Positions 7,474 to 60,456 of a stretch of 64,000 bases of DNA are shown here, one piece after another. Origin of the DNA: an uncultured Clostridia bacterium (GTDB lineage Bacteria > Bacillota > Clostridia > Christensenellales > Borkfalkiaceae); contig CANQKF010000002.1 in assembly GCA_947624445.1 (NCBI GenBank), forward strand, positions 1 to 64,000, given 5' to 3'. Below the pieces are notes generated by a model, which saw only the letters and a program-made list of their open reading frames with translations, had not been told where the DNA came from and made no database searches. The number at the start of each line of letters is the position of its first letter. The first letter of the stretch is position 1. A program made the translations under genes and the position numbers.

Positions 7474-7592
7474 AGTGACAAATGTGGTCGAAAAGGGGAC
7501 GCGCGCACGCGTAACCTGCGCCCAAAGGCAGTCCGCGGCGTCTCGCGGTGCGATTTGCGCCGAAGCGGCGCGGCCGCAACATGAATGGGAAT

Positions 7593-8081: not shown

Positions 8082-8092
8082 CGGAGTAAACT

Positions 8093-9977: not shown

Positions 9978-10789
9978 ACGGCACGGTCGAGATCGTTTCG
10001 GACGTCTTTCTCGCCCTCATCGGGCTGTGCATCGGCAGTTTTTTGAATGTGCTCATCTATCGGCTGCCGCTCGGCATGAACATCGCCTCGCCGCCCTCCC
10101 ATTGCCCCAAGTGCAACGCGAAGATCAAGTGGTACGATAACATTCCCCTTGTCTCCTACCTCGTCTTGGGCGGGAAGTGCAGGGTATGCAAAGAAAAGAT
10201 CCCGTTCCGCTACTTTTTCGTGGAACTCGCCAATTTGCTTTTGTGGGTCGCCGTGCTGGCGCTCTTCGACCTCTCGGTGTATTCGGTGGCATATGCGCTG
10301 CTCTCCTCCGTGCTGCTCGCGATCGTCTTTATCGACGCCGAGCACCAGATCATCCCCGATTCGCTGAACCTTACGGTGGCGATCCTCGGGGTCGCCGTCA
10401 CGGTGTACAGCGTCTTTTTCCCCGCGATCACGGGCCGCATCGGCAGCAACGAGGTGCTCTGGTGGGAGCATCTCGCGGGCGGCGCGGGCGCGGCGGCGCT
10501 CTTCCTCGCGATTTACTTCCTCTACAGGCTGATCCGCAAAAAGGAGGGGCTGGGCGGCGGCGACATCAAGCTCATCGGCGCCCTCGGGCTGGTGCTCGGA
10601 TACCGTTCGGTGCTGCTCTGCATCGGCGCCTCGGCGGTTCTTGCCTGCATCTATCTTCTGATCATGAAGATTGCGGGGAAGCTCGACCCTGCGAAGCCCT
10701 TCGCGTTCGGTCCGTTCCTCGCGGCGGCGGCGTATCTGTGCATGCTGTTCGGGAACGACCTCATCGGGCTGTATTTGCGTTTGTTTTAA
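9974..10789 (+). CDS. pilD: Prepilin peptidase / N-methyltransferase (A24 family)
   Basis: A 271-aa polytopic aspartic protease that cleaves prepilin leaders after Gly and methylates the new N-terminus. Visible: the N-terminal domain with two CxxC pairs (CPKC and CRVC, zinc-binding type), a first catalytic Asp in FIDAEHQIIPD (about residue 120) and a second in the GGGDIKLIGA motif (GxGD, about residue 197), with about eight membrane helices. The ATG at 9974 overlaps the upstream stop and is preferred over a GTG-like start six codons earlier. Its substrates are most likely the prepilins at 37, 7593 and 9079. Confidence 0.93.
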   Translation: MNGTVEIVSDVFLALIGLCIGSFLNVLIYRLPLGMNIASPPSHCPKCNAKIKWYDNIPLVSYLVLGGKCRVCKEKIPFRYFFVELANLLLWVAVLALFDLSVYSVAYALLSSVLLAIVFIDAEHQIIPDSLNLTVAILGVAVTVYSVFFPAITGRIGSNEVLWWEHLAGGAGAAALFLAIYFLYRLIRKKEGLGGGDIKLIGALGLVLGYRSVLLCIGASAVLACIYLLIMKIAGKLDPAKPFAFGPFLAAAAYLCMLFGNDLIGLYLRLF

Positions 10790-10798
10790 GGAGTCACT

Positions 10799-12025: not shown

Positions 12026-12029
12026 GAGA

Positions 12030-18003: not shown

Positions 18004-18747
18004 ATGAAGAAAGTTTTGTTGGCAGCGGCGCTTTCGGTCGCCATTGCCGCTGCGGCGGCAGGCGGCGCGGTATTCACGTCCGCGCGCCGTTCCCTGCCTG
18101 AGGCGCCCGCCACGGAGTGCGCGGTCGAGGCCGCTGTTCTTCGGCAGGGCAGCAGAGGAAACGAGGTCAAGGAGGTCCAGCGCCGTCTCAAGAATTGGGG
18201 ATACTATTCGGGTTCGGTCGATGGGATCTTCGGCGCCGCGACGAAGAAGGCGGTCATCGCCTTCCAGAAGAAGAACGGGCTCACGCCGGACGGCGTCGTC
18301 GGAAAGGCGACCTATGCCGCGCTCGGCATGAACGCTTCCTACAACGCGTTGCAGGGCGGCTCGGTCTCCTCGAACCAAGGCAGTTCGAATTACACATCTT
18401 CCGATCTCTATCTTCTCGCGAAGGCGATCTACGCGGAGGGCAGAGGGGAGAGCTACACGGGGCAGGTGGCGATCGGTGCGGTCATCATGAATCGCGTCAA
18501 GAGCCCTTCCTTCCCCAACACCGTCTCGGGCGTCATCTACCAGAAGGGCGCTTTCACGGCGGTCACGGACGGACAGATCAACCTCGAACCCAACCAGACG
18601 GCGTATAACGCCGCCCGCGACGCGATGAACGGCTGGGATCCGACGTACGGGTGCCTCTATTATTACAACCCCGCCGTCGCGACGAGTTCATGGATCTTCA
18701 ACCGCAAGACGGTGACGGTCATCGGCAAGCATGTCTTTGCCATTTAA
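18004..18747 (+). CDS. sleB: Spore cortex-lytic enzyme SleB
   Basis: A 247-aa exported hydrolase. It has a signal peptide (residues 1-25) and a peptidoglycan-binding domain (about 45-105: LRQGSRGNEVKEVQRRL, GIFGAATKKAVIAFQ). The C-terminal SleB/hydrolase_2 lytic transglycosylase domain (about 128-247) has catalytic-region phrase AIYAEGRGESYTGQVAIGAV. It degrades muramic-delta-lactam cortex during germination. It is followed ten bases on by ypeB, its usual partner. SD AGGAGG precedes ATG 18004. The upstream GCATAA...CACATTG arrangement may be a weak SigG-type promoter, but the match is poor. Confidence 0.95.
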   Translation: MKKVLLAAALSVAIAAAAAGGAVFTSARRSLPEAPATECAVEAAVLRQGSRGNEVKEVQRRLKNWGYYSGSVDGIFGAATKKAVIAFQKKNGLTPDGVVGKATYAALGMNASYNALQGGSVSSNQGSSNYTSSDLYLLAKAIYAEGRGESYTGQVAIGAVIMNRVKSPSFPNTVSGVIYQKGAFTAVTDGQINLEPNQTAYNAARDAMNGWDPTYGCLYYYNPAVATSSWIFNRKTVTVIGKHVFAI

Positions 18748-18757
18748 GGAGGGAGCG

Positions 18758-20791
18758 ATGAAAAAGACAATCGGAAAGAATGTCTCCAGCGGCGCCGAAA
18801 AGGTGGAGCGCGTGGAGGAAACCCGTGTGACGCCCGAGGGCGTCGACAGCAAGACGGCGCCTGCGGCCAAACCCGCGGCGAAAAAGACGGGCACGGCGAA
18901 GCGCACGGCGGAAAAACCGCGCACCGCGGGCAGAGCGAAGTCTGCTTCCGCGGCAAAGACGGCGGGCAAGGCCGAGCGCGCGAAGAAGAAGGAAGCGGCC
19001 GCGGCGGACCGCAGAGTCGAGGCGGCGAAGCTCCGCGCCGAAAAGAAGAAGGCGAAGGCGGAGAAAAAGACGGCGGTCAAGACCGCCAAGCTCGAGAAGC
19101 GGGCGCAGATCAAGGCCAAAAAGCTCGAAAAGCGGCAGGCGATCGCCGAGAAGAAGCTCGCGCGGCGGGAAGCCATCGCCAAGAAGAAGGCCGACCGCGC
19201 CGCAAAGCGGGAGGAGCGGAAGGCGGAGCTCAAGGAAAAGCGCGTCGAGAAGCGCGCGGAGCGCATCGCCCGCAGGGAGATGCTCCGTCACGAATCCAAG
19301 GCCGAGAAGCGGCAGCGGATCGCCCGAGAAAAGAAGGAAAAGCGCGCGGCGCATGCAAAGCGGGCGGAGGCGCGCGATAAGGCGCGGTCCGAGCGCAGGG
19401 CGGCGCGGGAGAACGCGCGGGTACGCAAGGCGGAGGACCGCAAGCACCGCCGCGAACAGCGCACCGAACGCAAACAGCACGCCCCCGGCTTCGGCGGCTG
19501 GCTGGCGGCGGTCATCTCCCTCGGCACGGCGTGCCTCGTGCTCGCCACCATCGTCACCGCGGGCGCATTCCGCATGAACGACATCCGCGTCGCGAGCGAA
19601 AACGGCTACCGTTCCACCCTGTTCGAGATGGTCTCGGTCTCCGAGGAGCTCGACGACAACCTCGGCAAGCTGCGCGTCTCCGCAGGCGCGGACGAACAGC
19701 GGCAGTTGCTCACGGATATCCTCGTCGACGCCGCCCTCATGGAGAGCGCGCTCGAAAAGATCCCCGTGGACGCCGAGACGGGCACGGACATCTCCGCCTT
19801 CGTCAACCGCACGGGCGCCTATGCGCGGATGCTGCTCTCCCGCATCGCCGCGGGCGGCACGCTCACCGCGAAGGAGAAAGAGGCGGTCGCTTCGCTCTAT
19901 GAGATCAACGATAAGCTCTACGGCGAGCTCAACGACCTCGTTTCGACGATGACGGAGAAGGATTTCACCGCCTTTCTGACGGGCAAGGGAACGATGCAGG
20001 ACCGCCTCGGCGAGATCGCGGGCGGCACAAGGAAACAGCCCGAGGAGACCGATTCGCCCTTCCTCGGCGAGGGGAACGTCGGCGAAAACCGCCTCGCGGG
20101 GCGCGAAGAGATCACCTCTTCGGAGGCGGAGGAGCGCGTGCGGCAGTACTTCGAGGGCTACCACATCCGCGACGTCCGCTACACGGGCGAGACGGTCGCG
20201 CGCGACATCGCCTGCTACAACTTCCTGCTCACCGATGAGAACGACCTCGAGATCTTTGCCGAGGTCACCAAGAGCGGCGAGCTCGCCTTCTTCGACACCT
20301 ACGAGGAGTGCGCGACCAAGAACTTCGATCTCGCCTCCTGCGACGCGATCGCCCGCGAATATCTCAAGAGCATCGGCATCGAGGGCGTCGAGGCGGTGTG
20401 GCGTTCGGACGGCGGCATGATCGCCAACCTCACCTACACCACGGTGCAAGAGGGCGTCCGCATCTATCCCGAGATCCTGCTCGTGCGCGTGTGCGAGGAG
20501 AAAGGGAGGGTCGTCGGCATGGACGCGAGGGGGTACCTGCTCAACCGTTCCGAGCGCAGTTTTGCGGCAGAGCTCTCCGAAGAGGAGGCGCGCGATCTGC
20601 TCGCGGACGGGCTCGAACCCTACGCCGTGCATCTCGCCGTCGTTCCCGTGCACGGGCAGGAGCGGCTCGCCTACGAATTCGCCTGCAACTACGGGGAAGA
20701 GGAGTTCATCGTCTACCTCGACGCGAATACGGGAGCGGAAGTGCGCATTTTCCGCGTCCGTGCGGGCGCCCGCGGGAGCTACCTGCGCTAA
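18758..20791 (+). CDS. ypeB: Germination protein YpeB with a long basic N-terminal extension
   Basis: A 677-aa protein. The C-terminal about 410 residues are YpeB: a membrane helix (about 246-268), then RVASENGYRSTLFEMVSV and the paired PepSY-like domains with conserved GYLLNRSER and YEFACNYGEEEF phrases. YpeB stabilises and localises SleB in the spore. Usual YpeB is about 450 aa with the helix at the extreme N-terminus. Here about 243 residues of Lys/Ala/Arg/Glu-rich low-complexity, probably helical sequence precede it and should lie on the cytoplasmic side. The ATG at 18758 has SD AAGGAGG. It is an operon with sleB. Confidence 0.92.
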   Translation: MKKTIGKNVSSGAEKVERVEETRVTPEGVDSKTAPAAKPAAKKTGTAKRTAEKPRTAGRAKSASAAKTAGKAERAKKKEAAAADRRVEAAKLRAEKKKAKAEKKTAVKTAKLEKRAQIKAKKLEKRQAIAEKKLARREAIAKKKADRAAKREERKAELKEKRVEKRAERIARREMLRHESKAEKRQRIAREKKEKRAAHAKRAEARDKARSERRAARENARVRKAEDRKHRREQRTERKQHAPGFGGWLAAVISLGTACLVLATIVTAGAFRMNDIRVASENGYRSTLFEMVSVSEELDDNLGKLRVSAGADEQRQLLTDILVDAALMESALEKIPVDAETGTDISAFVNRTGAYARMLLSRIAAGGTLTAKEKEAVASLYEINDKLYGELNDLVSTMTEKDFTAFLTGKGTMQDRLGEIAGGTRKQPEETDSPFLGEGNVGENRLAGREEITSSEAEERVRQYFEGYHIRDVRYTGETVARDIACYNFLLTDENDLEIFAEVTKSGELAFFDTYEECATKNFDLASCDAIAREYLKSIGIEGVEAVWRSDGGMIANLTYTTVQEGVRIYPEILLVRVCEEKGRVVGMDARGYLLNRSERSFAAELSEEEARDLLADGLEPYAVHLAVVPVHGQERLAYEFACNYGEEEFIVYLDANTGAEVRIFRVRAGARGSYLR

Positions 20792-20956: not shown

Positions 20957-23224
20957 CTACGCGCTCTTCGCGAGCTTCACGGTGACGACGGTCATATCGT
21001 CCTCCGCCCGTCCGCGGAACCGCCGCAGGGCTTCGTGCAAGATCTCCTCGGCGAGGGACTGCGGGTTGAGCGGATGCAGCTTGGAGAGATAGTTGCACAG
21101 CTCGGCGGAGGAGCCGAACGCCGTCGAGATCCCGTCGCTCATGAAGATCAGAAAGTCGTCCTCCTTCATCTCGACGCGCAGACAGGCGGGGCGGATGGCG
21201 TCGAGCACCCCGATGGGGAGGGATTCCCCCTCGAGCACCTGCAAGGTCTCGCCCGAGAGCACGAAGCCGGGCGGCGAGCCGATCTTCACGACGTCCGCGA
21301 TGCCCGAATCGAGGTCGAAGGCGGCGAGGTCCAAACAGGCGAAGCGCTCGTCCGAGGAGAAGGCGAGCAGGTTGTTCACGGTCGAGAGCACCGTCTCGGA
21401 GGGCATCCGCGCCTTGTAGAAGCTCTCGAGGAGGGTGAGCGTGCGGTCGGAGATCCGCCGCGCCTCTTCGCCGCTGCCCATGCCGTCCGAGAGGGCGACG
21501 ATGAACCTCCGCTCGTCGATTTTGAGGATGGAATGGGTGTCCCCGCTCGCGAGTTCGCCCTCCTTGGGGCGGGAGGCGATGCCGAACGCCGCGTCGAAAT
21601 CGGGGCGCTTTTTGAGCACGAAACAGGCGCGGTCGGCCGTGAGCGGAAGTTTTTCGGAGAGCGAGAGGGGGACGCCGAGCGTCTCGCTCGCGATCTTTGC
21701 GACGCGCGCCCCGCTCACCTTGCTCTCGAGCGTCGCGGTCGCCGTGAAGGATTCACCCTCCCCGTAGAGAAAGATCTCCGAGCTCAAAAGGCCGTCCTTT
21801 GCGAGCGCCTCCGCGAGGAGATGCTCCTCCTCGGAAAAGGAGAATTCGGCGCTCTGCTCGAGGGCGATGTTCCGCAGGATCTCGCTGATGCCGTGCGCCT
21901 GTTGGGCGAGGAGCATCCGCCCCTGCCGCGCCGATTCGAGTTCGAGCGCCACGTGGCGGTAGTCGGCGAGGTGTTGATTGAGCGCGAACAGCAGCCCCGC
22001 GGTGTTCACGCAGCCGTGGTTGAGCTCGGTGGGAACGTCGATAAGATCCACACGTCCCTTGGCTTTTCCCACGGCGATGAGCTTATCCATCTGTTCGTAG
22101 ATGCCCTCCGCCGCGCAGACTTTGCGGTTGCGGCAGTTCGTACACAGGCTCCCCTTGAGCTTTTCGCGGAGCTTGGAGACGTCGGTATCCGCGGGTTTTT
22201 GGGTATCGAAGGAGTTCTCGATCTCGCGGAAGAGAGAGGAGACCTCGTAGAGCTGTTCCCCGACGGCGCGGCGGTTGCGGTTGATGGCGATGCGCGGCAG
22301 GGCGGTCTCGCGGTAAAAGAGGAGACTCTTGCGCGCGCGGCGGAGCGCCCGTTCGGGGACGCACATGACCGCCACGGCGGGCACAAGACAGGAGAGCAGC
22401 GTAAATAAAATGGGGACGCCCCCCTGCATATAGACGCCTTCGAAGTACATCGCGCCCGCGAAGGCGACAAAGAGCGCGAGGGCGGCGGCGATCCTGCCGT
22501 AGGGGACGAGCATGAGCGCGGCACAGGCGAAGATGGCGTATTCCGCGAGCGGGACGACGGAGAGCCGCATCACGCAGAGGGGGAGCGCCAGCACGACGGC
22601 GAAGGGAACGCACACGGCGCTCCGGAAGAGCACCGCGGCGGCGAGCAGCGCAAAGAGGGAGACGGCGAAGAACGCCTCGGTCCCGAGCGCGGCGTAGAGC
22701 CCCATGCCCGCAAAGAGCCAGATCGACGCGATCTCCGCGAGTTCGCCCGCGGTGAGACGGGAGCGGAAGGCGCGGAACAGGATCGCCGAGAGCCCGCCTT
22801 CGAACAGCATGCAGAGCATCACCGAAAAGCCCGCAAGGATCACCTTCTGGAGGAGGGGCGTGAGCGGTAAGGCATACCCCGTATGTGGAAAAATCAAGAT
22901 GAACGGCACCTGTGCGCAGACGGCGTAGATCGCCCGTTCGAAGCCTGCTTTGCGCCGCAGACGGCCGTAGACGCTCCACACCACGACGCAGATCGCCGCT
23001 TGCAGCGCGGCGGAGAGGGTCGCGCCGATTGAGACGGCCGCGACGGAGGCGGCAAGGTATGCCCCGCCGAGCAGCAAGGGATTCCCGCCCGCGACGAGGG
23101 CGGCATAGAAGAGGGGAAAGGCGAGGGGCTCCCGCTGCGGCAGGGCAAAATTCAGGAAAACCATTGCCGCCGCGATCGCAAGATACCTGATCGCCGCGGT
23201 GGAAGAGATCTTCGGTCTTTTCAT
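20957..23224 (-). CDS. spoIIE: Stage II sporulation protein E (PP2C phosphatase)
   Basis: A 755-aa phosphatase that dephosphorylates SpoIIAA to activate SigF in the forespore and interacts with FtsZ. The N-terminal about 320 residues hold about ten membrane helices. A central regulatory region includes a CxxC-type NCRNRKVC. The C-terminal PP2C domain has ALSDGMGSGEEA (about 575), LIFMSDGIST and AEDDMTVV. The start at 23224 is chosen for SD AAAGGAG; the frame stays open upstream to 23482 but that extension contains a terminator hairpin. A TATAAT and a Spo0A box lie just upstream. It is convergent with ypeB. Confidence 0.95.
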   Translation of the reverse strand: MKRPKISSTAAIRYLAIAAAMVFLNFALPQREPLAFPLFYAALVAGGNPLLLGGAYLAASVAAVSIGATLSAALQAAICVVVWSVYGRLRRKAGFERAIYAVCAQVPFILIFPHTGYALPLTPLLQKVILAGFSVMLCMLFEGGLSAILFRAFRSRLTAGELAEIASIWLFAGMGLYAALGTEAFFAVSLFALLAAAVLFRSAVCVPFAVVLALPLCVMRLSVVPLAEYAIFACAALMLVPYGRIAAALALFVAFAGAMYFEGVYMQGGVPILFTLLSCLVPAVAVMCVPERALRRARKSLLFYRETALPRIAINRNRRAVGEQLYEVSSLFREIENSFDTQKPADTDVSKLREKLKGSLCTNCRNRKVCAAEGIYEQMDKLIAVGKAKGRVDLIDVPTELNHGCVNTAGLLFALNQHLADYRHVALELESARQGRMLLAQQAHGISEILRNIALEQSAEFSFSEEEHLLAEALAKDGLLSSEIFLYGEGESFTATATLESKVSGARVAKIASETLGVPLSLSEKLPLTADRACFVLKKRPDFDAAFGIASRPKEGELASGDTHSILKIDERRFIVALSDGMGSGEEARRISDRTLTLLESFYKARMPSETVLSTVNNLLAFSSDERFACLDLAAFDLDSGIADVVKIGSPPGFVLSGETLQVLEGESLPIGVLDAIRPACLRVEMKEDDFLIFMSDGISTAFGSSAELCNYLSKLHPLNPQSLAEEILHEALRRFRGRAEDDMTVVTVKLAKSA

Positions 23225-23243: not shown

Positions 23244-23249
23244 ATTATA
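23244..23249 (-). promoter_or_regulatory. -10 box of the spoIIE promoter
   Basis: TATAAT on the minus strand, 19 bases before the ATG. No SigA -35 lies at the right distance (CCTGCC instead), as expected for an activator-dependent promoter. The mRNA would begin at or just before the SD. Confidence 0.7.
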
Positions 23250-23289: not shown

Positions 23290-23298
23290 TTTGTCGAA
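23290..23298 (+). promoter_or_regulatory. Spo0A box upstream of spoIIE
   Basis: TTTGTCGAA, a full match to the 0A-box consensus, centred about 57 bp upstream of the predicted spoIIE start point and in reverse orientation to the gene. Activation of spoIIE by Spo0A is established in Bacillus. Confidence 0.65.
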
Positions 23299-23894: not shown

Positions 23895-25088
23895 TCATTT
23901 CATCGATTTGAGTTCGATCTTGGGCAGCGGACGGACCGCGGGGAGCAGGGCGTCTTTCCACTTCGCGTACTCTTTGAGCGAACGGCGGTAGAGGGTGCGC
24001 TGGAGCATGAAGAGATCGCATCCGGCGTCCTTGGCCGTCGTCCAGAGCTTTTCCACGTGCTCCGTGAGCAGCTGTTTCACGTTCCCGAGGATCTCGGGGC
24101 TCACGCTGTCGGAGGCGATGTCCGAGATGGAGGCGCTCACGCCGCGGCAGCACAGGCGCAGGGTGAGCGAGAGGGAGAGCTCGGCGGTGGGCGCGTTGTT
24201 CATTTTGAGCGCGACGCCGCCCTTGTTCCGCACGACGGTCAGCGTGACGGCCTTCTCGCCGTCGGTAGCGTTGAGGGTCCCCGAGAACACCTTCCCGCGC
24301 AGCAGGCTGAATGCGAAGGTCTCCTCGCGGGAGAGGAGGGCGACCATCTTCCCCTTCTTGAAGAGCGCCGTCTCCTCGGCGCTGTACACTTTCTGGCTCT
24401 CTTCGCCGCCGTTTGCGCCGCTTCCGCCTCCGCTTTCGCTGTCCCCGCCCGCGCTCTGCCCGCCCTGCTGTTCCGTCATGCGGATGTAGGGCAAAAAGCC
24501 GCTCTCCGAGACGCCGTAGTATCCGATCGCGAAGTCCTTCAGGGTGGAGACGGCGACCATGCCCGATTTTTGCGCCGCGTCCGAGAAGAGTTTTTCGATG
24601 GCGAGGGAGGAGGCGTCGTCGATGGCGCTTGCCGAGGAGATGAGCTCGCCCGCCTTCCCCTCGCACACGGCGAGCAGACAGGAATCGGGCATGTAGTCGT
24701 TGCGGAGAAAGTAGTTGAGGTGGGAGATGATGTCCTCGCCCTTCGCCGCCGCTTCGCCGATGACGATGAGATCGCAAAAGACGAGCTTGGGCACCCAGCC
24801 CGTCTTGGCGAAGATGAGGGAGATGCAGTCGGAGACGGTCTCGCCCTCCGCCTCGATCTCCACGGAGGAAGTGCCGCCCGTGGTGCGGTCGCTGCCCTTG
24901 GGCACGGCGATCTGCGCCGTCACCGAAAATCCGTTCTCCGTCTTGTCGATGCCCGCGGCGAGGATGATTGCCGTCTTTTGGATATCCACGAGCCCGAAGT
25001 CGTTGGAGAAGAAGGCAAACACGACGATCGCCGCGAGGATCAGATAAATTTTCATGGGGAGCGTATGCAAAAATTTACGGAATTTCAC
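23895..25088 (-). CDS. gerAC: Ger(x)C family germinant receptor subunit
   Basis: A 397-aa subunit C of a GerA-type germinant receptor in the spore inner membrane. It has an N-terminal hydrophobic segment (about 12-30), then the family opening VDIQKTAIILAAGIDKTENGF and the later three-domain pattern. GerAC proteins are normally lipoproteins with a lipobox Cys before this point. Here the region reads VVFAFFSNDFGLVDIQ with no Cys, so the protein may be held by an uncleaved helix. A Gly/Ser-rich insert lies near residues 205-225. It starts at a GTG with SD AGGAGG and overlaps gerAB by 14 bases. Last gene of the operon. Confidence 0.88.
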   Translation of the reverse strand: MKFRKFLHTLPMKIYLILAAIVVFAFFSNDFGLVDIQKTAIILAAGIDKTENGFSVTAQIAVPKGSDRTTGGTSSVEIEAEGETVSDCISLIFAKTGWVPKLVFCDLIVIGEAAAKGEDIISHLNYFLRNDYMPDSCLLAVCEGKAGELISSASAIDDASSLAIEKLFSDAAQKSGMVAVSTLKDFAIGYYGVSESGFLPYIRMTEQQGGQSAGGDSESGGGSGANGGEESQKVYSAEETALFKKGKMVALLSREETFAFSLLRGKVFSGTLNATDGEKAVTLTVVRNKGGVALKMNNAPTAELSLSLTLRLCCRGVSASISDIASDSVSPEILGNVKQLLTEHVEKLWTTAKDAGCDLFMLQRTLYRRSLKEYAKWKDALLPAVRPLPKIELKSMK

Positions 25089-26148
25089 GGCGTTTCCTCC
25101 TGAGCAGAAGCATGAGCGCGGGCACGAGCACCGAGAAGAGGGGGAAGATCCAGAAGAGCTGTTTCCCGACCGCGCCGAGCACCTCGGTGAAGCGGTAATC
25201 GGTGCATTGGGAGACGACCAGAAGCGCCGCGCAGACGGCGACGGAGAAGATCGTCGGAAGATAGCGCCGCCTGCCGTACGCCTGCAACAGGCATTCGACG
25301 CCCGCCTGCAGGGGCAGCGCGCAGTAGAACGCCATCACGAGGGAGAGCAGGAAGATGAAGAGGTAGTCGATGCGCCCGAGCGTCGAGATGCCCGAGAAGA
25401 ACTTGGAGGTCGCCGTGAAGGCGAAGAGTTGGTTGGTCGCCGTCTCCTGGAAGATCCCGTAGAAGATGCCCGCGAAGAGGATGACCGCCGCCCCGCCCGC
25501 GAGGTAGCACAGCGTCCCCTTGAGGGCGAGATGCTTCTTGTAGTCGAACGTCCCGAGGAAGGGGAGGATAAACGCGGCGTCGTAGAACCAGCCGAAGCCG
25601 TTGCGGAAGGCGGTGAGGATGCCCTTCGCCCCCGAGGCAAAGGCGGGGGAGAGGGCGGCGAGATCTGCGCTGCCCGCCGAGAGGATGAAGATGCCCGCAA
25701 GCCCCGCGATCGCGATGGGCGCCAGAAGATCGCACACCTGCCCGCTCGAGGCGAGGGGCTTGGAGGCGATGAACGCCGCGAACAGGAAGAAGGGCGAGAA
25801 GGAGACGAGGGAGGGCAGGGTATCGTAAAACACGCTCTGCACGAGCAGTTTCTGTTCGAGCAGCGGAAGGAGCGCCGCGAAGAACAGGAAGAGGGCGTAG
25901 ATGTTCATGAACACCTTCGCCGCGATCTTCCCGAAGGTGTTTGCGAGCAGTTCGGAAAAGTTCATCCCCCGCTTTGCGAGCAGCAGCGCGCAAAAGACGG
26001 CGCCCGCCTGCAAGAGGTAGTGCATGGCAAAGGGGAAGAGCAGGTCGTTCCCCGCGGCCTCCGCGAGGCGCGCGGGCAGCAGGATGAGCTTTCCGACGGG
26101 CGCCACGCAGGCAAGGAAAAAGAGCACCTGCCGGGTAGAGATCTTCAT
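25075..26148 (-). CDS. gerAB: GerAB/ArcD/ProY family germinant receptor subunit
   Basis: A 357-aa polytopic protein of the APC superfamily spore-germination transporters, with about ten membrane helices. It begins KISTRQVLFFLACVAPVGK, as in GerAB members. This subunit is thought to bind the small-molecule germinant and to pass the signal to GerAA. The ATG at 26148 overlaps the gerAA stop in ATGA and has SD AAGGAGG. The specific germinant cannot be read from the sequence. Confidence 0.92.
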   Translation of the reverse strand: MKISTRQVLFFLACVAPVGKLILLPARLAEAAGNDLLFPFAMHYLLQAGAVFCALLLAKRGMNFSELLANTFGKIAAKVFMNIYALFLFFAALLPLLEQKLLVQSVFYDTLPSLVSFSPFFLFAAFIASKPLASSGQVCDLLAPIAIAGLAGIFILSAGSADLAALSPAFASGAKGILTAFRNGFGWFYDAAFILPFLGTFDYKKHLALKGTLCYLAGGAAVILFAGIFYGIFQETATNQLFAFTATSKFFSGISTLGRIDYLFIFLLSLVMAFYCALPLQAGVECLLQAYGRRRYLPTIFSVAVCAALLVVSQCTDYRFTEVLGAVGKQLFWIFPLFSVLVPALMLLLRRKRREIP

Positions 26149-27575
26149 TTCAGCCTCCTTTTGTTGGGACTTTTGAGGACGTTGGGGCGGATCTTCAGCG
26201 ATCCGAGGTTGAATTTCACGAGGCTGTCCTTGAGTTCCCGCCGCGCGAAGGGCGCGAACGGGGCGACGAGCGGCACCCCGAAGTTGACCGTCGTCACGAG
26301 GTAGACGAGCAAGAACGCCGTCGCGAGGATGACGCCGTAGGGCCCGATGCTCCCCGCGATGAGCAGCATGGCGAGCCGCAGAACGCTCGTCTGCTCGATG
26401 AGGTTGGGCACGGCGTAGAGCCCGATGCCCGAGAAGGCGATGATGATGATCGCGGGCGTCGAAACGAAGCCCGCCGAGACGGCGGTCTCCCCGAGTACGA
26501 GCGCCCCCACGACGGAGAGCGCCATGCCGACGTATTTGGGCATGCGGATGGAGGCCTCGTTGAGCACCTCGAGCACAAAGAGCACGAGCAGCATCTCGAG
26601 GGAGGGCGAGAAGGGGATATCGCGGATGCTCCCCGCGATCGTGAGCAGCAGTTTGACGGGGAACAGCTGTAATTTATAGAGCTGGGCGGAGACGTAGAAG
26701 GCGGGCAGATAGATGGCGACGACGAGCGCGAGCAGCCGCAGAATGCGCGTGAACGACGCGCGGTAGGGGGGCACGAAGTAATCCTCGCTCGATTGGAAGT
26801 CCTCGATGAGCATGTAGGGGAGGGTGAGCGCGATGGGGGAGCCGTCCACGAGCAGCCCGAGCCTGCCCTCCGCGATCTTCGCCGCGAAGATATCGGGCTT
26901 TTCGGTCGTACCCACCTGCTTCACGAGCGAATAGGGGCGCGTGGAGAGGAAATGGGTGAGATAGGAGCTATCGGGGATGATGTCGATGTCGATCTCCGAG
27001 AGCTTTTTCTTGACCTCCTCCACCGTCGCTGCGGGGGTGGTGCCCTCGAGCCAGCAGATGGCGACGTTCGTCTTGGAGCGCCTGCCGATCTCGACCGTCT
27101 CGATGCGCAGTTCGCCCGTCTTGAACCTACGCCGCACGAGGGAGGTGTTCGTCTTGACATCCTCGATGAAGCCCTCGCGGGGGCCCTTCACGGCGACGTC
27201 CGTCGAGGGCTCGGCGATGGCGCGCGTGAACACTTTTTTGGTGCCCACGACGATGCCCGCGTCCATGCCCTCGAAGAGCAGCACGGGGTTGCCCGCGAGC
27301 ACCTCCGCCGCGAGATTTTCGAGGGCGGGCTCGATCTTCGTCTCGGGCGAAGTGAGCCGCTTTGCGATCTCCGCCGCGGACGGGGGGCCGTCGTAGGAGA
27401 GCAGGGCGCGGATGACCTGCTCGCCGAGCAGATCCTTATCGGTGATGGGGTCCGCAAAGACGCAGACGAACCCGATCCGCTGCGCCGCGAAGCCAAAGGT
27501 GAGGATATCCTCCGCGGGCAGGAGCTTTTTGAGGGCGTCTTTGGTCTTTTCAAGGTCGCCCGTAACATGTTTCAT
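26145..27575 (-). CDS. gerAA: GerAA family germinant receptor subunit
   Basis: A 476-aa subunit A. It has an N-terminal cytoplasmic half with family phrases (NVAICWLEGT, IIPDSSYLTHFLS, GLLVDGSPIALTLPYMLIEDFQSSEDYF) and a C-terminal half with about five membrane helices and PNLIEQTSVLRLAMLLIAGSIG. It oligomerises into the ion channel of the germinant receptor. ATG 27575 gives the usual length (about 480 aa). There is no SD, but a SigG-like promoter ends five bases upstream, so the mRNA is probably leaderless. The frame is open upstream to 27869, but that sequence is low-complexity and not GerAA-like. Confidence 0.92.
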   Translation of the reverse strand: MKHVTGDLEKTKDALKKLLPAEDILTFGFAAQRIGFVCVFADPITDKDLLGEQVIRALLSYDGPPSAAEIAKRLTSPETKIEPALENLAAEVLAGNPVLLFEGMDAGIVVGTKKVFTRAIAEPSTDVAVKGPREGFIEDVKTNTSLVRRRFKTGELRIETVEIGRRSKTNVAICWLEGTTPAATVEEVKKKLSEIDIDIIPDSSYLTHFLSTRPYSLVKQVGTTEKPDIFAAKIAEGRLGLLVDGSPIALTLPYMLIEDFQSSEDYFVPPYRASFTRILRLLALVVAIYLPAFYVSAQLYKLQLFPVKLLLTIAGSIRDIPFSPSLEMLLVLFVLEVLNEASIRMPKYVGMALSVVGALVLGETAVSAGFVSTPAIIIIAFSGIGLYAVPNLIEQTSVLRLAMLLIAGSIGPYGVILATAFLLVYLVTTVNFGVPLVAPFAPFARRELKDSLVKFNLGSLKIRPNVLKSPNKRRLK

Positions 27576-34000: not shown

Positions 34001-37000
34001 AACGGCATCTTCCAGATCCCCGAAGGCGGTACCGAGATCGGCGGCGGCGCGTTCAACGCGCAGACGGAGATCGTCGAGATCAGGATCCCCGCGTCCGTCC
34101 AGAAGATCGGCGACAATGCCTTCGCGAACTGCGTCAGCCTCAAGAGAGTCGTCTTTGCGAAGGGCAGCGTGCTCCAGGAGATCGGCAAGGCGGCATTCTT
34201 GAACTGCTCTTCCCTCGAATCCATCAACCTCGAGGATTGCAACTCGCTCACGACGCTCGGCGCAGGCACGAGCTCGGACGGCGGCGTGTTCGCAGGCTGC
34301 AAGAACCTCAAATCGTTGAAGTTCGGCTCCGCGCTCACGACGATCGGCAGCTACCAGTTCGAGGACCACTCCTATGTCGAAGAAGTCGATTTCTCGGCGT
34401 GCGGACAGCTCCAGGAACTCCCGAGCTACCTCTTCCAGGATAACATCTATATCAAGTCCGTGAAGTTCCCGTCCTCGATCACCTTCTTCGGCGGCACCTA
34501 CACGTTCGATGGCTGCACCAACCTCTCGCGCATCAACTCCGACGAAGAGGGGACCATCGACCTCAGCGGCCTCACGAACCTTCAGTACTTGTATTCCTCC
34601 GCGAAGCCCGCCGCGAGCTTCAAGCCCGAGACCTCGACGGGCACCACCTACACCTTCCAGGATTGCACGTCGATCAAGAAGGTGATCTTGCCCGAGAGCC
34701 TCGAATTCATCGGCGGTTCCGCGTTCAAGAACTGCACGAGCCTCACCGAGATCGTTGGCCTCGAGAACGTGATCGGCCTTGCGAGCAGCTCCATCTTCCA
34801 GAATACCGGGCTCACCTCGGTCACGATCGGCTCCGGCGTCAAGACGCTCGGCTCCTCGCTCTTCCAGGGCTGCGCCCAGCTCACCTCCATCACCTTCGAG
34901 GCGCCCGAGAACTTCTCGACGCTTCCCGGAAGCCTTATCAGGGATTGCACGTCGCTCACGGAATTCGACCTCACGCAGTTCGAAAACGTCACGTCGCTCA
35001 ACACCTACATCTTCTCCGGCTCGGGCGTGAAGAAGGTCGACCTCTCGTCCTTCAAGACGATCAAGTCGCTCCCGAACTACTTGTTCTGGAACTGCACCGA
35101 GCTCGAGGAAGTCATCCTTCCCAAGGCGGACGACGGCGCCGTGCTCAACTACCTCGGCACCTACACCTTCCAGGGCTGCACCAAGCTCTCCAAGATCAAC
35201 TCCGATGAAGCGGGGACCTTCGATCTCTCCGGGATCAGCCTCACCCTCATCGGTACCTCTGCGACGGCGGCTTCCACCACCGGCAAGGCCTACACCTTCG
35301 ATGGCTGCGAAGCGCTCAAGAAGGTCATCCTTCCCGAGAAGTGCACCAAGCTCGCAGGCTGGGTATTCAGCAACTGCCCGAACCTCACCGACATCAACTT
35401 CGATCAGCTCGTGCAGATCGGTACCTACGCATTCTCGAACACGGGCTTCAGCTCCCTCGTCATTCCCAAGACGGTCACGAGCTGGGCGGAAGGCGCGTTC
35501 ATGTACTGCGAGAAGCTCACCCGCGTTCAGCTTGCTTCGGGCTTCACCTCCCTCGGCTCCAAGTGGATCTTCGCGGAGTGCCCGAATCTCGCCGAAGTCG
35601 TCGTCCCGACGTCGATCACCCACCTCGGCACCTACACGTTCCAGAACGACGTGAACCTCACGCGGATCATCGCGAGCGACAAGACGGAGACCGATCTCGA
35701 AGTCGACCTTCTCTCGGATCCCGTCGGCACCTTCGATTTCAGCAAGGCGACCAAGCTCACGCGGCTCTCCTCGGGCGCGACGACGGCAGTCAGCTCCTCG
35801 ACGGATTCCTACGTGTTCGCGGGTTGCCTCGGGCTCAAGGAATTCAAGGCCTCCGCGTCGCTCGTGCAGGTCGCAGGCTATGCCTTCGACGGCTGCGCAA
35901 ATCTTCAGTCCTTCGACTTCTCGAACCTCACCAACCTCGGGCGCTATGCCTTCCGCGGCACGGGCATCACAGAAGTCAAGTTCGGCGATAAGCTCTCGAC
36001 GAGCGTGTACTACGCACCGTTCCAGGATTGCGAGAATCTCACCAAGATCACGGTCCCGACGGGCAACACCAACGTGAAGTTCGAAAACGGCATGCTCCTC
36101 AACGCCAAGACGAACGCCGTCATCATGGCGATCCCCAACTTGATCCTCACGAGCGAGGACGGGACGCTCACCATCAGCGATGAGACGACGTTCTCGAGCA
36201 ACGCCTTCCAGGGCGGCTTCAACGGCGTCACCAAGCTCGATCTCTCGAAGCTCACGATCACCTCGATCCCGACCTACGCCTTTGCGGATGCGGGCTTCAA
36301 GCAAGTCGTGCTTCCCGCAACGGTCACCTCGATCGGCACCTACGCCTTCTCGAACTCCGCGCTCGAATCGATCGACTTCAACGGCGCGAAGGTCACCTCG
36401 ATCGGCAACTATGCCTTCCAGGGCACCGCGCTCACCGAGTTCACCGTCCCGAATACGGTCACCTCGCTCGGCTACGGCACGTTCTACAACTGCAAGCAGC
36501 TCCAAACCGTCACCTTTGAGGACGGCGCGCCCGAGGGTGCGGAAGAGGAGACGCTCGTCACGATCGGCGCAGGCGGCAGCAGCGCGCCCAAGAACGACGG
36601 CAGCAGCGAGACCCGCGGCGTATTCGAGGATAGCAGCGTGCAGAAGGTCGTGTTCCACCGCGTTGCCAAAGTGCCCGTCCGCGGATTCGCCAACGCGAAG
36701 TCCCTCAAGGAAATCGAATACGGCGATGAGGTCAACGAGATCGGCGGCTACTACACCTTCTACGGGTGCGAGAGCTACACCTCGCTCAGAGTCCCCGATA
36801 CCGTCACGACGATCGGCGCCTATGCGTTCGCGTACTCCTGCTTCACGGAGGTCACGATCCCCGGCACGGTCACCTCGATGAGCTCCTACTCGTTTGCGGA
36901 TAGCAAGGTCGTCACCGTCACGTTCGAAAAGGGCGATCCCGAAGCGCCGCTTCCCACGACGATGTACAACACCTTCCGTGAATGTGCGGATCTCAAGAAC

Positions 37001-37381
37001 GTCGACCTCGGCAACCGTTTCACGGTGCTCGCCTACGACTTCTTCACCGACTGCGTCTCGCTCGAAACGCTCGTCATCCCCGAAGGCGTCACCGAGTTCA
37101 CCGGCCTCTGCTTGGGCTGCATCAAGCTCTCCTCGCTCACCCTTCCCGAGAGCCTCACGACGATCGGCGCCACCCGCCACAACTTCGAGAATACGCCGAG
37201 CCTCAAGAACATCGTCATTCCCGCGAACGTGAACAGCATCAACAAGGACGCGTTCGCCGGCATGACGAAGGATCAGACGGTCACCTTCAAGAACACGCGT
37301 TTCTCGCTCGTGCAGTCGATCAACAGCGCGCTCTTCATCGCGAATTCCGACGCGAACTTCGTGTTCGAGCCCCTCGCATAA
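28013..37381 (+). CDS. Giant BspA-type leucine-rich-repeat lipoprotein (3122 aa)
   Basis: A lipoprotein signal ends in the lipobox FVAGC (Cys about 24), so the protein should be anchored on the outer face of the membrane. Order: a small N-terminal domain (about 30-110); InlB B-type repeats (about 115-265, W-Y motifs FVGWYTD, FVGWYVS); fibronectin-like domains (about 270-665); another InlB-type repeat (FGGWYTA). About 2200 residues of BspA/LRR_5 repeats follow, with the pattern 'I-x-x-x-A-F-x-x-C-x-x-L-x-x-I-x-L-P', to the C-terminus. Around residues 2150-2640 a longer unit (TYTF-x-G-C ... FDLSG ... YTF-x-C) recurs three times. Such proteins act as adhesins or mucin/host-surface binders in other species. 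SD AAAGGAG precedes ATG 28013. Confidence 0.9.
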   Translation: MKRRFLLIVCLIFAFMGAMAFVAGCTDPENETPSAEVGEYYYDAGGTEYLLTLKTGKKFTLAMGADNKSGTYTLEGEALTLNYSEGDPALASYAGNSISLPYGDTTYNFLKKVDFTVKFETDGGSRIADVTVLNGKTISAPDDPEKAGSVFVGWYTDNTHRNAFYFSQPVKDNLTLYALFVEKLDPEFTARFDLNYEDAEAEKAPAPQETAGRRLYRLPTPERDGATFVGWYVSHFADSTKLTYEYTDQVLAENVTLYAVWEEDGAPVVSVTEAGVAVRASGANNSFNIKITAPDGSVKEEQQSGNGTLAYDFAGGDAGEYTVEVTLNGKSVTRYYNNKALARVSVFTVEGSLLMFNAVENAQNYKLTVLCGSESHEHNDIDLRTQTSWSFANCDMREGGIAFTVTASGEGYLPSTSETFYFTRTLDQVANLAIDKETESVTWDAVEKATGYFVEIKKGTETLYSENIGDVCSFDFKPYGAGEYRITVQPYARGWSQPEAAVLAYTKTRSATPANVRIEGSSIVWDAIEGVNEYEIEFDGQKQTVTGTSFDYESVAAGKTSFTFRVRAKGSSEDVSSLWSDAITFRSGSLDEIRYSAGKVSWDPLTGVSGYEITVGDAAPVTVRGSETSYAVTFTQKGKVVISVSAIFEDGGVSTPVTTTVDVYALEFNIEGAEAIAPQYYADGDPLALPQSPTRYGYNFGGWYTAPGGPNGEGNSYDSERYFNGNSDRSLYAYWSPKLININFNLGRFGDTADWEARKITGQAVLFGSEFTLPVPESTDPTRRFEAWHLDSDAGLSITDFQGKGKAFTTEMEGGVTVYASYQVLYVFEEVEGGYSVSRGPAMDYVTEARIPAYYRNQPVTQIGDFSKCALLERLYIPDTVIIINLGTTAVAFSGCTKLNWCEIYEVEGNTAEKVFSSQNGVLMRKNSASGDLELRYVPYGMTGVLNVPEGVTTIVEGAYYTRSNIGSGSDTSGGIERVNIPSSVTSVARGAFAFCSSLREVYFEPDGSKTDLKPLTIDPMMISNNGKYVLYENQSVYASNGSYLTKITLPKRIADTFTADTLGLFRSLTTIEIEEGGALSMEGGLVIRDKGAEGKEVVFATPRDGDVEQIKNFVIPAGVNSIGEKAFYYNTTVRNITIPNWVTKIGAHAFEGCYLVETLKFEGTETDQDLSVGDRAFYFYYGRKYKPESGTTSDSSIPSSNSKVTELILPANLVAIGEQSFGEMSQLKDVTVNAARTQLNYSEGAFNNRSNSAYVQTVRLGPSCPMFDVSGVFGNAVKQVIVDDQNPYYSTDEQGVLFAKDAIDPSKRSIAFFPTAFEGAYTIPEDIFEIPASCFARRTNLTGITLHSKITKIGDQAFYLCTSLKDVTFVATPDGEEPVELTIGASAFYGCDEIVTLSLPERVKTLGASVFKSCTSLTELVLPASLEKIEATTTGLTVGAIDAFDDCDSLSKLTVAEGSKYFATDGGVLYALKGVYKDAETKEIEYVPYELIYCPVGVSGTVKIPGSVHIVDKYAFNHTDKVQEIVFENTKEYLAPGTPTEEEPDPADETIPAEIEVLENAFYYCGGLTKVTFGHGLKTMRTRIFYSCNKLDTVTISNTVTSIQPDVFYVGVNSSSLAHIYFEDGGNDPLRIEDGTQTTSGTGPVDTYYHGAFGNLDKLEEIEFPSRLAYLGNNAFRMDSPGSSIGKSSSLATIKFKDLKEGSTLEIGTYVFYGAPLTGEVKLPEGLTKIGNYAFYLVSARDNGAKISLPSTVETIGGNAFSNRHFADEFVIPASVTSIGVSAFSQTAARATSTTKVVIADNSQLESIGNGAFSSFVNVTSFEFSKNVNAQGEVAAAAETENRALLTLGSAIFSGMTKLQSIVLPSNLKVIGANEFSGLTSLSSITWEDPDHSAIESIGTSAFSRTAIERFDFPTTYASAGTIKLDANLFMFCNKLTTVSLSASISDVNNVFTGCSALQTIEISDDNTYLSSRPPIVYNKEGNIVKFVCGAYNKDNGIFQIPEGGTEIGGGAFNAQTEIVEIRIPASVQKIGDNAFANCVSLKRVVFAKGSVLQEIGKAAFLNCSSLESINLEDCNSLTTLGAGTSSDGGVFAGCKNLKSLKFGSALTTIGSYQFEDHSYVEEVDFSACGQLQELPSYLFQDNIYIKSVKFPSSITFFGGTYTFDGCTNLSRINSDEEGTIDLSGLTNLQYLYSSAKPAASFKPETSTGTTYTFQDCTSIKKVILPESLEFIGGSAFKNCTSLTEIVGLENVIGLASSSIFQNTGLTSVTIGSGVKTLGSSLFQGCAQLTSITFEAPENFSTLPGSLIRDCTSLTEFDLTQFENVTSLNTYIFSGSGVKKVDLSSFKTIKSLPNYLFWNCTELEEVILPKADDGAVLNYLGTYTFQGCTKLSKINSDEAGTFDLSGISLTLIGTSATAASTTGKAYTFDGCEALKKVILPEKCTKLAGWVFSNCPNLTDINFDQLVQIGTYAFSNTGFSSLVIPKTVTSWAEGAFMYCEKLTRVQLASGFTSLGSKWIFAECPNLAEVVVPTSITHLGTYTFQNDVNLTRIIASDKTETDLEVDLLSDPVGTFDFSKATKLTRLSSGATTAVSSSTDSYVFAGCLGLKEFKASASLVQVAGYAFDGCANLQSFDFSNLTNLGRYAFRGTGITEVKFGDKLSTSVYYAPFQDCENLTKITVPTGNTNVKFENGMLLNAKTNAVIMAIPNLILTSEDGTLTISDETTFSSNAFQGGFNGVTKLDLSKLTITSIPTYAFADAGFKQVVLPATVTSIGTYAFSNSALESIDFNGAKVTSIGNYAFQGTALTEFTVPNTVTSLGYGTFYNCKQLQTVTFEDGAPEGAEEETLVTIGAGGSSAPKNDGSSETRGVFEDSSVQKVVFHRVAKVPVRGFANAKSLKEIEYGDEVNEIGGYYTFYGCESYTSLRVPDTVTTIGAYAFAYSCFTEVTIPGTVTSMSSYSFADSKVVTVTFEKGDPEAPLPTTMYNTFRECADLKNVDLGNRFTVLAYDFFTDCVSLETLVIPEGVTEFTGLCLGCIKLSSLTLPESLTTIGATRHNFENTPSLKNIVIPANVNSINKDAFAGMTKDQTVTFKNTRFSLVQSINSALFIANSDANFVFEPLA

Positions 37382-59561: not shown

Positions 59562-59576
59562 TTGTCGCATCGACAA
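59562..59576. promoter_or_regulatory. Inverted Spo0A-box-like pair
   Basis: TTGTCG-CAT-CGACAA, two half-sites resembling the 0A box (TTTGTCGAA) facing each other, about 100 bp upstream of the predicted start of the Spo0A-family gene. It suggests autoregulation. Confidence 0.45.
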
Positions 59577-59590
59577 TTTTGTACAAAATT
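59575..59590. promoter_or_regulatory. GTAC palindrome 1, putative operator
   Basis: AATTTTGTACAAAATT, a perfect 16-bp palindrome centred 42 bp from palindrome 2. Confidence 0.6.
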
Positions 59591-59616: not shown

Positions 59617-59632
59617 ATTTTTGTACAAAAAT
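59617..59632. promoter_or_regulatory. GTAC palindrome 2, putative operator
   Basis: ATTTTTGTACAAAAAT, a perfect 16-bp palindrome abutting the -35 box (59636). Confidence 0.6.
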
Positions 59633-59635
59633 GAC

Positions 59636-59664
59636 TTTACAAATCCGAAAATGTGTTTTATAAT
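59636..59664 (+). promoter_or_regulatory. Promoter of the Spo0A-family gene
   Basis: TTTACA (59636-59641), 17-bp spacer, TATAAT (59659-59664). Confidence 0.85.
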
Positions 59665-59706: not shown

Positions 59707-60456
59707 ATGAAACGCATTTTGATTCTCGAGAGCAACGAGGCATTCGCAGGGGAACTCAAAGAACACTTTACGCGCAAGGGATACGAGGTCTGCGGCGTGA
59801 CGGGCGACGGGAAAGAGGGGCTCAAACTCCTCGAAAAATGCGCGCCGAACGCTGTGGTGCTCAGTCTCTTTCTCACTTCATGCGACGGGTTCACCGTCCT
59901 CGACGAGGCGCGCGCGGCGGGCAGGAAGGCGGATTTCATCGTGATGGGGAACTTCGCCGACGACAAGATCATCAATCGCGCCATCGCGCTGGGCGCGCGG
60001 TATTACCTCATGAAGCCCGTCTCGGCGGAGCTTGTCGAGGCGCGGGTCGCGGAGATCTCGGCGGAGCTGCCCGTGCAGACGGAGAAGTTCGAGCGCAGGC
60101 GGGCGGGTTCGCTCGACGAGCGCATCTCGGGCATCTTCATCTCCATCGGGATCCCGCCCCACATCAAGGGCTATAACTACCTGCGCGAGGGCATCAAGAT
60201 GGCGGTGAACGATCCGCACATCATCAACAACGTGACGAAGGGGCTCTATCCCATCATCGGGGAGAAGTTCCAGACCTCTGCGAGCAAGGTGGAGCGCGCC
60301 ATCCGCCACGCGATCGAGGTGGCGTGGAACCGCGGGCGGGTCGACGCCGTGAACGCCATCTTCGGGGCGCGCGTCTACATCGGGAGCGAGAAGCCGACGA
60401 ACAGCGAGTTCATCGCGCTCGTTGCGGATAAGCTCATTCTCGAGAGCATGGTTTGA
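59707..60456 (+). CDS. spo0A: Spo0A-family regulator with a non-phosphorylatable receiver
   Basis: A 249-aa response regulator. The C-terminal Spo0A DNA-binding domain (about 140-249) is clearly conserved: IGIPPHIKGYNYLREGIKM, SASKVERAIRHAIEVAWNRG and KPTNSEFIALVADKL. The N-terminal receiver (about 1-120) keeps the fold and the conserved Lys (K103 in LMKP), but the phospho-acceptor Asp is Ser53 (VVLSLFLTSCDG against the usual VLDIIMPHLDG). The switch Thr is Gly81, and the acidic pair reads E8-S9. It should not be switched by the usual phosphorelay. It is not next to spoIVB, the usual spo0A neighbour, so it is probably a paralogue; whether a canonical Spo0A exists elsewhere cannot be told here. 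SD AGAGG, ATG 59707. Confidence 0.88.
   Translation: MKRILILESNEAFAGELKEHFTRKGYEVCGVTGDGKEGLKLLEKCAPNAVVLSLFLTSCDGFTVLDEARAAGRKADFIVMGNFADDKIINRAIALGARYYLMKPVSAELVEARVAEISAELPVQTEKFERRRAGSLDERISGIFISIGIPPHIKGYNYLREGIKMAVNDPHIINNVTKGLYPIIGEKFQTSASKVERAIRHAIEVAWNRGRVDAVNAIFGARVYIGSEKPTNSEFIALVADKLILESMV

Follow-up and report, generated by a model that had tools for sequence, protein, structure and literature searches.

For bacilli and clostridia alike, the phosphorylation of Spo0A has been named as the key switch into sporulation (PMC3533761, accessible portion). The stretch of 64,000 nucleotides of uncultured clostridial DNA analysed in this study (the window) encodes a Spo0A with serine at the position of the phosphorylated aspartate. 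The locus raises the question of whether such a protein can still act as a sporulation regulator and, if so, what controls it.

Gene identity and receiver residues

The features of the gene and its product were as follows:

59707..60456, plus strand: spo0A, ATG at 59707 and stop at 60454-60456, 249 amino acids, pseudo-receiver and Spo0A_C
59728..59733, plus strand: Glu8-Ser9 at the acidic (metal-binding) pair, from sequence and alignment
59863..59865, plus strand: Ser53, codon AGT, at the phospho-acceptor Asp position, from sequence and alignment to solved Spo0A receivers
59947..59949, plus strand: Gly81 codon at the switch Thr/Ser, from sequence and alignment
60013..60021, plus strand: Lys103-Pro104-Val105, with Lys and Pro retained and Val as K+2
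60124..60435, plus strand: Spo0A_C DNA-binding domain, PF08769, residues 140-243, 130.6 bits (132.9 in a second search)

The product gave a full-length match to the NCBIfam model TIGR02875 (spore_0_A) at 226.4 bits (cut-off 200), and its receiver matched Pfam Response_reg (PF00072) at 50.5 bits over residues 4-114. The Spo0A_C domain was 54-59% identical to solved Spo0A DNA-binding domains, and its recognition helix, SKVERAIRHAIEVAW, was common to nearly all orthologues read. The initial annotation had called the DNA-binding half Spo0A, which the PF08769 and TIGR02875 matches bear out, and had read Ser53, Gly81 and Glu8-Ser9 in the receiver, which the open reading frame, the profile matches and the alignment to solved receivers confirmed. 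Two of the five active-site residues of a receiver remained, the acidic Glu8 and Lys103, and the second acidic residue, the Asp and the Thr/Ser were replaced; the residue set of a canonical phospho-regulated Spo0A (Asp, acidic pair, Thr/Ser and Lys) was broken at S53, S9 and G81. A pseudo-receiver is defined, in the accessible text of PMC12632262, as a receiver missing at least one of the five active-site residues, and the aspartate-less subset as lacking the Asp. The present protein retains the receiver fold and has lost active-site residues including the Asp; it is Spo0A by descent and a pseudo-receiver by definition.

The assembly comprised 1.84 Mb in 68 contigs and was 93.85% complete. A whole-genome search of this assembly yielded one Spo0A_C protein and no second Spo0A, with or without Asp, and three other response regulators matched in the receiver only. 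The suggestion that the protein might be a competitor or antagonist of a canonical Spo0A was therefore rejected, and a search of 101 genus genomes showed no canonical second copy either. The extra full-length copies in those 101 genomes comprised a tandem pair, one gene duplicated almost identically on two contigs, and two divergent Asp paralogues, and the remaining extra Spo0A_C matches were short or partial. The tandem copies (L199, genome G068) lay about 4.8 kb apart, with Ser53 in one and Asn53 in the other. The divergent second Spo0A_C protein of two Gallimonas genomes (L236 in G092, L238 in G019) and of genus g16 (L235) had the acidic pair (DD) and the Asp intact; its beta3-alpha3 region was shortened and its recognition helix differed strongly. 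Four divergent proteins (L234, L235, L236 and L238; Asp in three) were kept out of the counts, and L237 was not matched by the Spo0A_C search. Many other genomes of the order (e.g. G357, G362 and G384) carried extra Spo0A_C matches in open frames of about 110-185 codons with no room for a receiver, which are perhaps stand-alone Spo0A DNA-binding domains.

Distribution of the substitution

The source genome belongs to Candidatus Gallimonas, a genus known from metagenome assemblies in database records: its named GTDB records matched the protein at 79-82% identity, and Borkfalkia excrementavium, a more distant named relative, at 57%. NCBI taxonomy lists Gallimonas under Clostridia incertae sedis and Borkfalkia under Christensenellales; GTDB assigns both to Borkfalkiaceae, order Christensenellales. 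Whole-genome searches gave a Spo0A_C match in 87 of the 101 genus genomes (53 of the 58 good ones) and in 165 of the 174 good family genomes.

Serine at position 53 was conserved in the homologues of sister genomes. Among the 34 genus orthologues with a receiver from whole genomes (own protein included, two genomes contributing two copies each), 33 had Ser and one, the second copy of the tandem pair, had Asn. The 74 distinct Gallimonas proteins from whole genomes and named loci had Ser (71), Asn (2) or Asp (1), and in the sole Asp-bearing protein neither the second acidic residue nor the switch Thr/Ser was present. A protein database search gave 7984 clusters under E 1e-20; the 120 cluster representatives listed, own protein included, had Ser (116), Asn (2), Gly (1) or Asp (1). 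The AGT codon is reliable, as had been claimed, and a read or assembly error is excluded because Ser recurs in same-genus orthologues and in the listed clusters; Asp in sister genomes, the sign that would have pointed to such an error, was confined to that one protein of the 74.

The substitution was also common beyond the genus. In 17 other genera of the family, Asp was absent from 47 of the 65 orthologues read (paralogues omitted), with Gly, Ser, Asn or Glu instead, and was found in genera g2, g15, g17 and g18 and in 12 of the 22 proteins of g8. This variety of residues speaks against one substitute chemistry for the whole family. All five active-site residues were present in none of the 62 family Spo0A on the tree, in 39 of 51 from the rest of the order and in 77 of 98 from the class; even the Asp-bearing proteins of the family each lacked at least one other catalytic residue. 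The second acidic residue was present in 10 of the 62 family proteins (missing in 52) and the Lys in 56. At least 15 switches between Asp and non-Asp were counted on the tree of 211 proteins, at least six of them inside the family; the tree was made by a quick method (LG+G4, trait columns excluded), and weak branches could change these counts. In the rest of the order, the main Spo0A copy had Glu in f10, f19 and f29 and in one protein each of f11 and f28. The class-wide sample had Asp in 94 of 104 proteins, with Glu (5), Asn (2), Gly (1), Ser (1) or Ala (1) in the others; it consisted of the 30 best and 74 further matches from a 148-genome draw, in which 15 genomes had no match, and included three genomes of the same order as the window. 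Six of the 104 with weak C-terminal scores (four Asp, two non-Asp) were dropped from the tree and the residue tally, and L005 (truncated receiver) and an 85-amino-acid fragment in L202 were removed. The loci read were best matches and chosen genera, and the fractions are not population estimates. Judged from these alignments, the change at the receiver is older than the species.

Selection and predicted structure

Over 27 disjoint Gallimonas pairs, one of them a within-genome duplicate, the receiver had a median dN/dS of 0.14 (maximum 0.43) and the DNA-binding part one of 0.047; Asp-bearing relatives provided just three usable pairs (receiver 0, 0.03 and 0.68), too few for comparison. By these ratios, Spo0A is under purifying selection, with a DNA-binding half that is near invariant. 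Residues E8, N10, D60, G61, G81, D86, Y99, Y100, K103 and P104 were invariant in all 74 Gallimonas proteins, and of the other pocket residues N82 was found in 72 and S53 in 71.

An AlphaFold2 model (mean pLDDT 85, pTM 0.52) showed a complete (beta-alpha)5 receiver and Spo0A_C, the orientation of the two domains being uncertain. With this model as query, the top Foldseek matches were Spo0A DNA-binding domains, with phosphorylated Spo0A sixth; VIA-align placed other receivers at the top and phosphorylated Spo0A 16th, within just over one Z unit. The VIA-align scores of the ArlR receivers were 22.0 for the BeF3-bound, 22.0 for the Mg-bound and 21.9 for the free form; since these states score alike, the model is silent on the favoured state.

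The residue at K+2, Val105, was Val in 71 and Ile in 3 of the 74 Gallimonas proteins. Outside the family, K+2 was Val, Ile or Leu in 13 of 14 non-Asp Spo0A (the 14th being a gap), and Phe in 82 of 135 Asp-bearing ones; the contrast of V/I/L/A against Phe between non-Asp and Asp-bearing proteins gave a Fisher p of 7e-7, not corrected for descent. Genus g3 of the family retains Phe. According to the part of PMC12632262 that is accessible, Val at K+2 moves CheY toward active forms, and residues of this type are over-represented in pseudo-receivers.

Promoter and 0A boxes

The 0A box, the binding site of Spo0A, has the sequence TGTCGAA (TTCGACA on the opposite strand). The sites found upstream of spo0A and at spoIIE, a direct target of Spo0A in model species, were as follows:

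59562..59576, no strand assigned: inverted repeat TTGTCG-CAT-CGACAA, 0A-box-like, upstream of spo0A
59577..59588, no strand assigned: palindrome TTTTGTACAAAA, copy 1
59619..59630, no strand assigned: palindrome TTTTGTACAAAA, copy 2, adjoining the -35 element
59636..59664, plus strand: near-consensus sigma-A type spo0A promoter, TTTACA-17-TATAAT
20957..23224, minus strand: spoIIE, PF07228 (101.9 bits) and PF19732 (55.5 bits) over cut-offs, TIGR02865 (265.8 bits) below its cut-off of 490.8
23244..23249, minus strand: TATAAT downstream of the spoIIE 0A box
23292..23298, minus strand: 0A box TTCGACA, starting 74 bases before the spoIIE start

The promoter pattern (TTTACA-N15..19-TATAAT) recurred in 65 of 71 Gallimonas spo0A upstream regions. 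The palindrome TTTTGTACAAAA, repeated between the 0A-like repeat and the spo0A -35 element, was found in 39 of the 71. The exact 0A 7-mer was absent upstream of the window's own spo0A, where one-mismatch sites stood in the inverted repeat instead. An exact box within 250 bases upstream of spo0A was present in 41 of 71 Gallimonas regions (300 shuffles: mean 3.5, maximum 10), in the orientation TTCGACA in 36 and TGTCGAA in 7, some having both, and the control stretch from -400 to -250 had an exact box in 5 of 71. Exact boxes upstream of spo0A were likewise found in 42 of 61 regions from other genera of the family (shuffles 2.6, maximum 7) and 23 of 51 from the rest of the order (shuffles 1.6, maximum 7).

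At spoIIE, an exact box was present in 6 of 8 Gallimonas genomes, own genome included (shuffles 0.25), and in 2 of 18 outside the genus, where it was not enriched (shuffles 0.46, maximum 3). The corresponding counts for Gallimonas and for other genomes, respectively, were 3 of 9 and 3 of 15 at spoIIAA (shuffle maximum 3 in both) and 1 of 6 and 0 of 3 at spoIIGA; the gene starts of the distant target genes are uncertain in these box counts. The box signal is uneven over the targets: in Gallimonas it is clear at spo0A and spoIIE and weak at spoIIAA and spoIIGA. About 463 kb of the genome, in which contig C27 was chosen for spoIIA and C1 partly for sigG, contained 47 exact 0A 7-mers and about 341 script-called genes. 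TTCGACA lay within 150 bases upstream of four called genes, namely spoIIE, spoIIAA, a minD-like gene and a YlmC/YmxH-like gene beside sigG, the last two named by eye. The minD-like gene (L473, G000:C1:144317-145051, minus strand) had its exact box 74 bases upstream, and Spo0A may possibly be linked to division-site choice through this gene.

Kinases and sporulation genes

One HisKA protein was found in the own genome, 1-7 in genomes of the family and 0-29 in other members of the order (52 genomes). HATPase_c had nine matches in the own genome, three of which were histidine kinases, each adjoining its own regulator: OmpR-type on C2, NarL-type on C14 and OmpR-type on C16. Two of the three were identified by Pfam, and that on C16, with the ATPase domain alone visible, was assigned by neighbourhood. 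One of the six other matches was SpoIIAB by position, and a weak match lay on C24 (22.8 bits). No orphan kinase for Spo0A was left over among the three histidine kinases recognised in the 93.85% complete genome, a search that could overlook kinases outside the usual types or encoded in the absent 6%. With four of the 52 genomes left out for an unread Spo0A, the median HisKA count was 2 in non-Asp genomes (n=23) and 5 in Asp genomes (n=25; p 1.4e-4), with p 0.009 inside the family and p 0.018 outside. A tree-based pair test of HisKA count against Asp loss had four usable pairs and gave no support, and kinase loss as the cause of Asp loss was kept as a lead only.

The window also encodes germination genes:

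18004..18747, plus strand: sleB, spore cortex-lytic enzyme, TIGR02869 284.6 bits (cut-off 236.5)
18758..20791, plus strand: ypeB, germination protein, PF14620 (80.2 bits) and PF20769 (72.6 bits) over cut-offs, TIGR02889 183.5 bits, below 303.55
23895..25088, minus strand: gerA-type subunit C, PF25198 (106.4 bits) and PF05504 (53.5 bits) over cut-offs
25075..26148, minus strand: gerA-type subunit B (permease), PF03845 35.3 bits (cut-off 23.4)
26145..27575, minus strand: gerA-type germinant receptor subunit A, PF03323 449.1 bits (cut-off 27), NCBIfam GerXA 267.4 bits, below 850

Elsewhere in the genome, SpoIVA scored 533.3 bits (cut-off 459.9) and SpoVAD, on another contig, 441.3 bits (cut-off 411.8). 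SpoIVA was above cut-off in 51 of 56 genomes, and in the family it was matched in 28 of 29 and above cut-off in 26. SpoIIE was matched in 53 of the 56 genomes and above the NCBIfam cut-off in 4. Two SigF/SigG-type genes were present in the own genome, one following spoIIAA (73.5 bits, cut-off 114.75) and spoIIAB, the other scoring 363.6 bits to the SigG model (cut-off 372) near a spoIIGA-like gene, itself named by eye and position; the SigF cut-off was reached in none of the 56 genomes. CwlD-like and SigH-like proteins of the own genome scored below their cut-offs. Alpha/beta SASPs (PF00269) were found neither in the own genome nor in any of the 26 family genomes searched, a Bacillus subtilis control giving matches, and in the rest of the order they were found in 10 of 26 genomes and missing from 16. 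The 26 family genomes gave no alpha/beta SASP match although SpoIVA and SigF/SigG-type genes remain.

Published assessments of the group, in the portions accessible, were as follows. One predictor gave a non-sporulating call for all but one of 19 Christensenellales MAGs from human samples, which included Borkfalkiaceae (PMC12536801). The gene content of Borkfalki ceftriaxensis led to its annotation as a spore-former (PMC6839795), and Borkfalkiaceae were listed among potential spore-formers in a MAG study (PMC11536998). Sporulation itself is not certain because alpha/beta SASPs were not found in the 26 family genomes and because of the predictor's non-sporulating calls.

Other regions of the window and genome showed a type IV pilus or type II secretion-like cluster at 7548-13688, with a T2SSE/MshEN ATPase at 12030-13688, and a 3122-residue open reading frame with a lipoprotein-like start at 28013-37381. 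A long phage-like gene run, judged by eye, occupied about 1-93 kb of G000:C1 (L466-L470), with a large structural-type open reading frame and ribonucleotide-reductase-like and polymerase-like starts.

Interpretation and alternative explanations

The comparisons above support the view that the canonical phospho-switch is unusable in this Spo0A, which would be intrinsically active or otherwise gated, and that this extends far beyond the own genome. The initial annotation had proposed that the protein must be constitutive, gated by another signal or an antagonist; non-canonical activity or gating stood, with the 74 genus proteins and the absence of a complete active site in all 62 family proteins, and the antagonist was not supported, one Spo0A_C protein being found in the genome. 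The protein is a clade-wide, under-described variant and is probably still a sporulation regulator. The most likely explanation, on sequence evidence, is that this Spo0A, with its pseudo-receiver, works without phosphorylation and continues to drive sporulation under the control of its amount or another input. We give about even credence to the specific form in which this pseudo-receiver, the sole Spo0A found, has kept 0A-box recognition and starts sporulation, the decision being made by the amount of Spo0A and not by a kinase. The receiver could no longer accept a phosphoryl group at the canonical Asp. The protein would be intrinsically able to adopt the active, DNA-binding form, with Val at K+2, where this residue favours the active form of CheY. 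It would still recognise 0A boxes, act on its own gene and start sporulation through spoIIE and probably the spoIIA operon, and the decision would lie in the amount of Spo0A, with promoter and autoregulation setting a threshold. A wider statement, which we rate as somewhat less likely than not, is that this whole family of gut Clostridia and, independently, several other clostridial lineages sporulate without Spo0A phosphorylation. The phosphorelay input would have been lost and the receiver converted to a pseudo-receiver, the decision being made by Spo0A level or by a directly sensed signal, and the spore programme would have changed in further ways, the lack of alpha/beta SASPs being one.

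Rather unlikely, though the strongest of the alternatives, is a pseudo-receiver gated by a small molecule in the remodelled pocket or by a partner on the alpha4-beta5-alpha5 face, which would make Spo0A a direct sensor. The remodelled pocket is kept in Gallimonas (E8, N10, G81, D86 and K103 in all 74, N82 in 72, S53 in 71), more than expected for a site without importance and with a receiver dN/dS of 0.14, and partner or ligand control is discussed for other pseudo-receivers in the accessible part of PMC12632262. However, position 53 is S, G, N, E or D among sister genera, and no partner gene was identified; as the pocket differs in this way, one shared ligand for the family is unlikely.

It is improbable that the sporulation pathway is being lost, with Spo0A a relic or re-employed and the loss of Asp a sign of decay. 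The lack of alpha/beta SASPs in all 26 family genomes, the 1-7 HisKA kinases of the family, the unenriched spoIIE boxes outside Gallimonas (2 of 18) and the predictor's calls for all but one of the Christensenellales MAGs (PMC12536801, accessible part) would agree with such a loss. It is opposed by the retention of Spo0A_C in most good genomes (53 of 58 for the genus, 165 of 174 for the family), the purifying selection on Spo0A, the 0A boxes at spo0A across the family and at spoIIE in Gallimonas, SpoIVA in 28 of 29 family genomes, SleB, YpeB, the GerA receptor and SpoVAD in the own genome, and the spore-forming annotations of Borkfalki ceftriaxensis (PMC6839795) and Borkfalkiaceae (PMC11536998), as far as these sources are accessible.

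Slightly less probable again is a phosphorylation moved to another residue, such as a neighbouring Asp, or Ser53 as the substrate of a Ser/Thr kinase. Ser53 is phosphorylatable and nearly fixed in Gallimonas (71 of 74), and Asp60, the usual Asp of the receiver DG turn, is invariant there, but the Gly, Asn or Glu of related genera cannot be phosphorylated in that way and the second acidic residue is absent from 52 of 62 family Spo0A. An error in the Ser codon, or a canonical second Spo0A in the missing part of the 68-contig, 93.85% complete assembly, has a negligible probability against Ser in 116 of 120 listed clusters and 33 of 34 genus orthologues and no canonical second Spo0A across 101 genus genomes.

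If the phosphorylation-independent reading is true, a family that has lost the phospho-site but kept regulator, boxes and many spore genes would show the switch to be dispensable. The presence of spo0A in a genome would then not imply a phosphorylation-based sporulation decision. The control of pseudo-receivers was called a mystery in a 2025 review (PMC12632262, accessible part), and the family would offer natural replicates for asking how they are controlled.

Comparison with known systems

Aspartate-less receivers as such are well known, and the pseudo-receivers ChxR, HP1043, RitR, GlnR and WhiI resemble the present protein in that a DNA-binding regulator carries a receiver fold with an incomplete five-residue active site (PMC4395418 and PMC12632262, accessible portions). 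A natural Spo0A of this kind is not described in those portions: PMC4395418 mentions Spo0A for an Asp-to-Glu substitution and in its reference list, and PMC12632262 contains no 'Spo0'. In the open-access literature, as far as its text was accessible, no account turned up of a naturally occurring Spo0A that lacks the Asp.

Epulopiscium sp. type B is similar in having Spo0A in a lineage with modified sporulation, where the kinases known from C. acetobutylicum are all missing (PMC3416734, accessible part). Epulopiscium keeps the phosphorylation site, which the same text shows in all six Spo0A aligned, and SASP genes, without gerK receptor genes, whereas the own genome lacks the phospho-site and alpha/beta SASPs and has a gerA-type receptor. 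An Epulopiscium-like viviparity behind the altered Spo0A was set aside because sleB, ypeB, the gerA operon and spoVAD are present here and Epulopiscium retains the phospho-site.

The canonical Spo0A of Bacillus subtilis and Clostridium, whose dimerisation and 0A-box binding rise on phosphorylation, differs from the present protein, in which the phospho-Asp, the second acidic residue and the switch Thr/Ser are replaced and for which no orphan kinase was recognised. The two agree in domain order, recognition helix and TIGR02875 score, in occurring as a single copy at the head of the sporulation genes, and in 0A boxes at spo0A and, within Gallimonas, at spoIIE.
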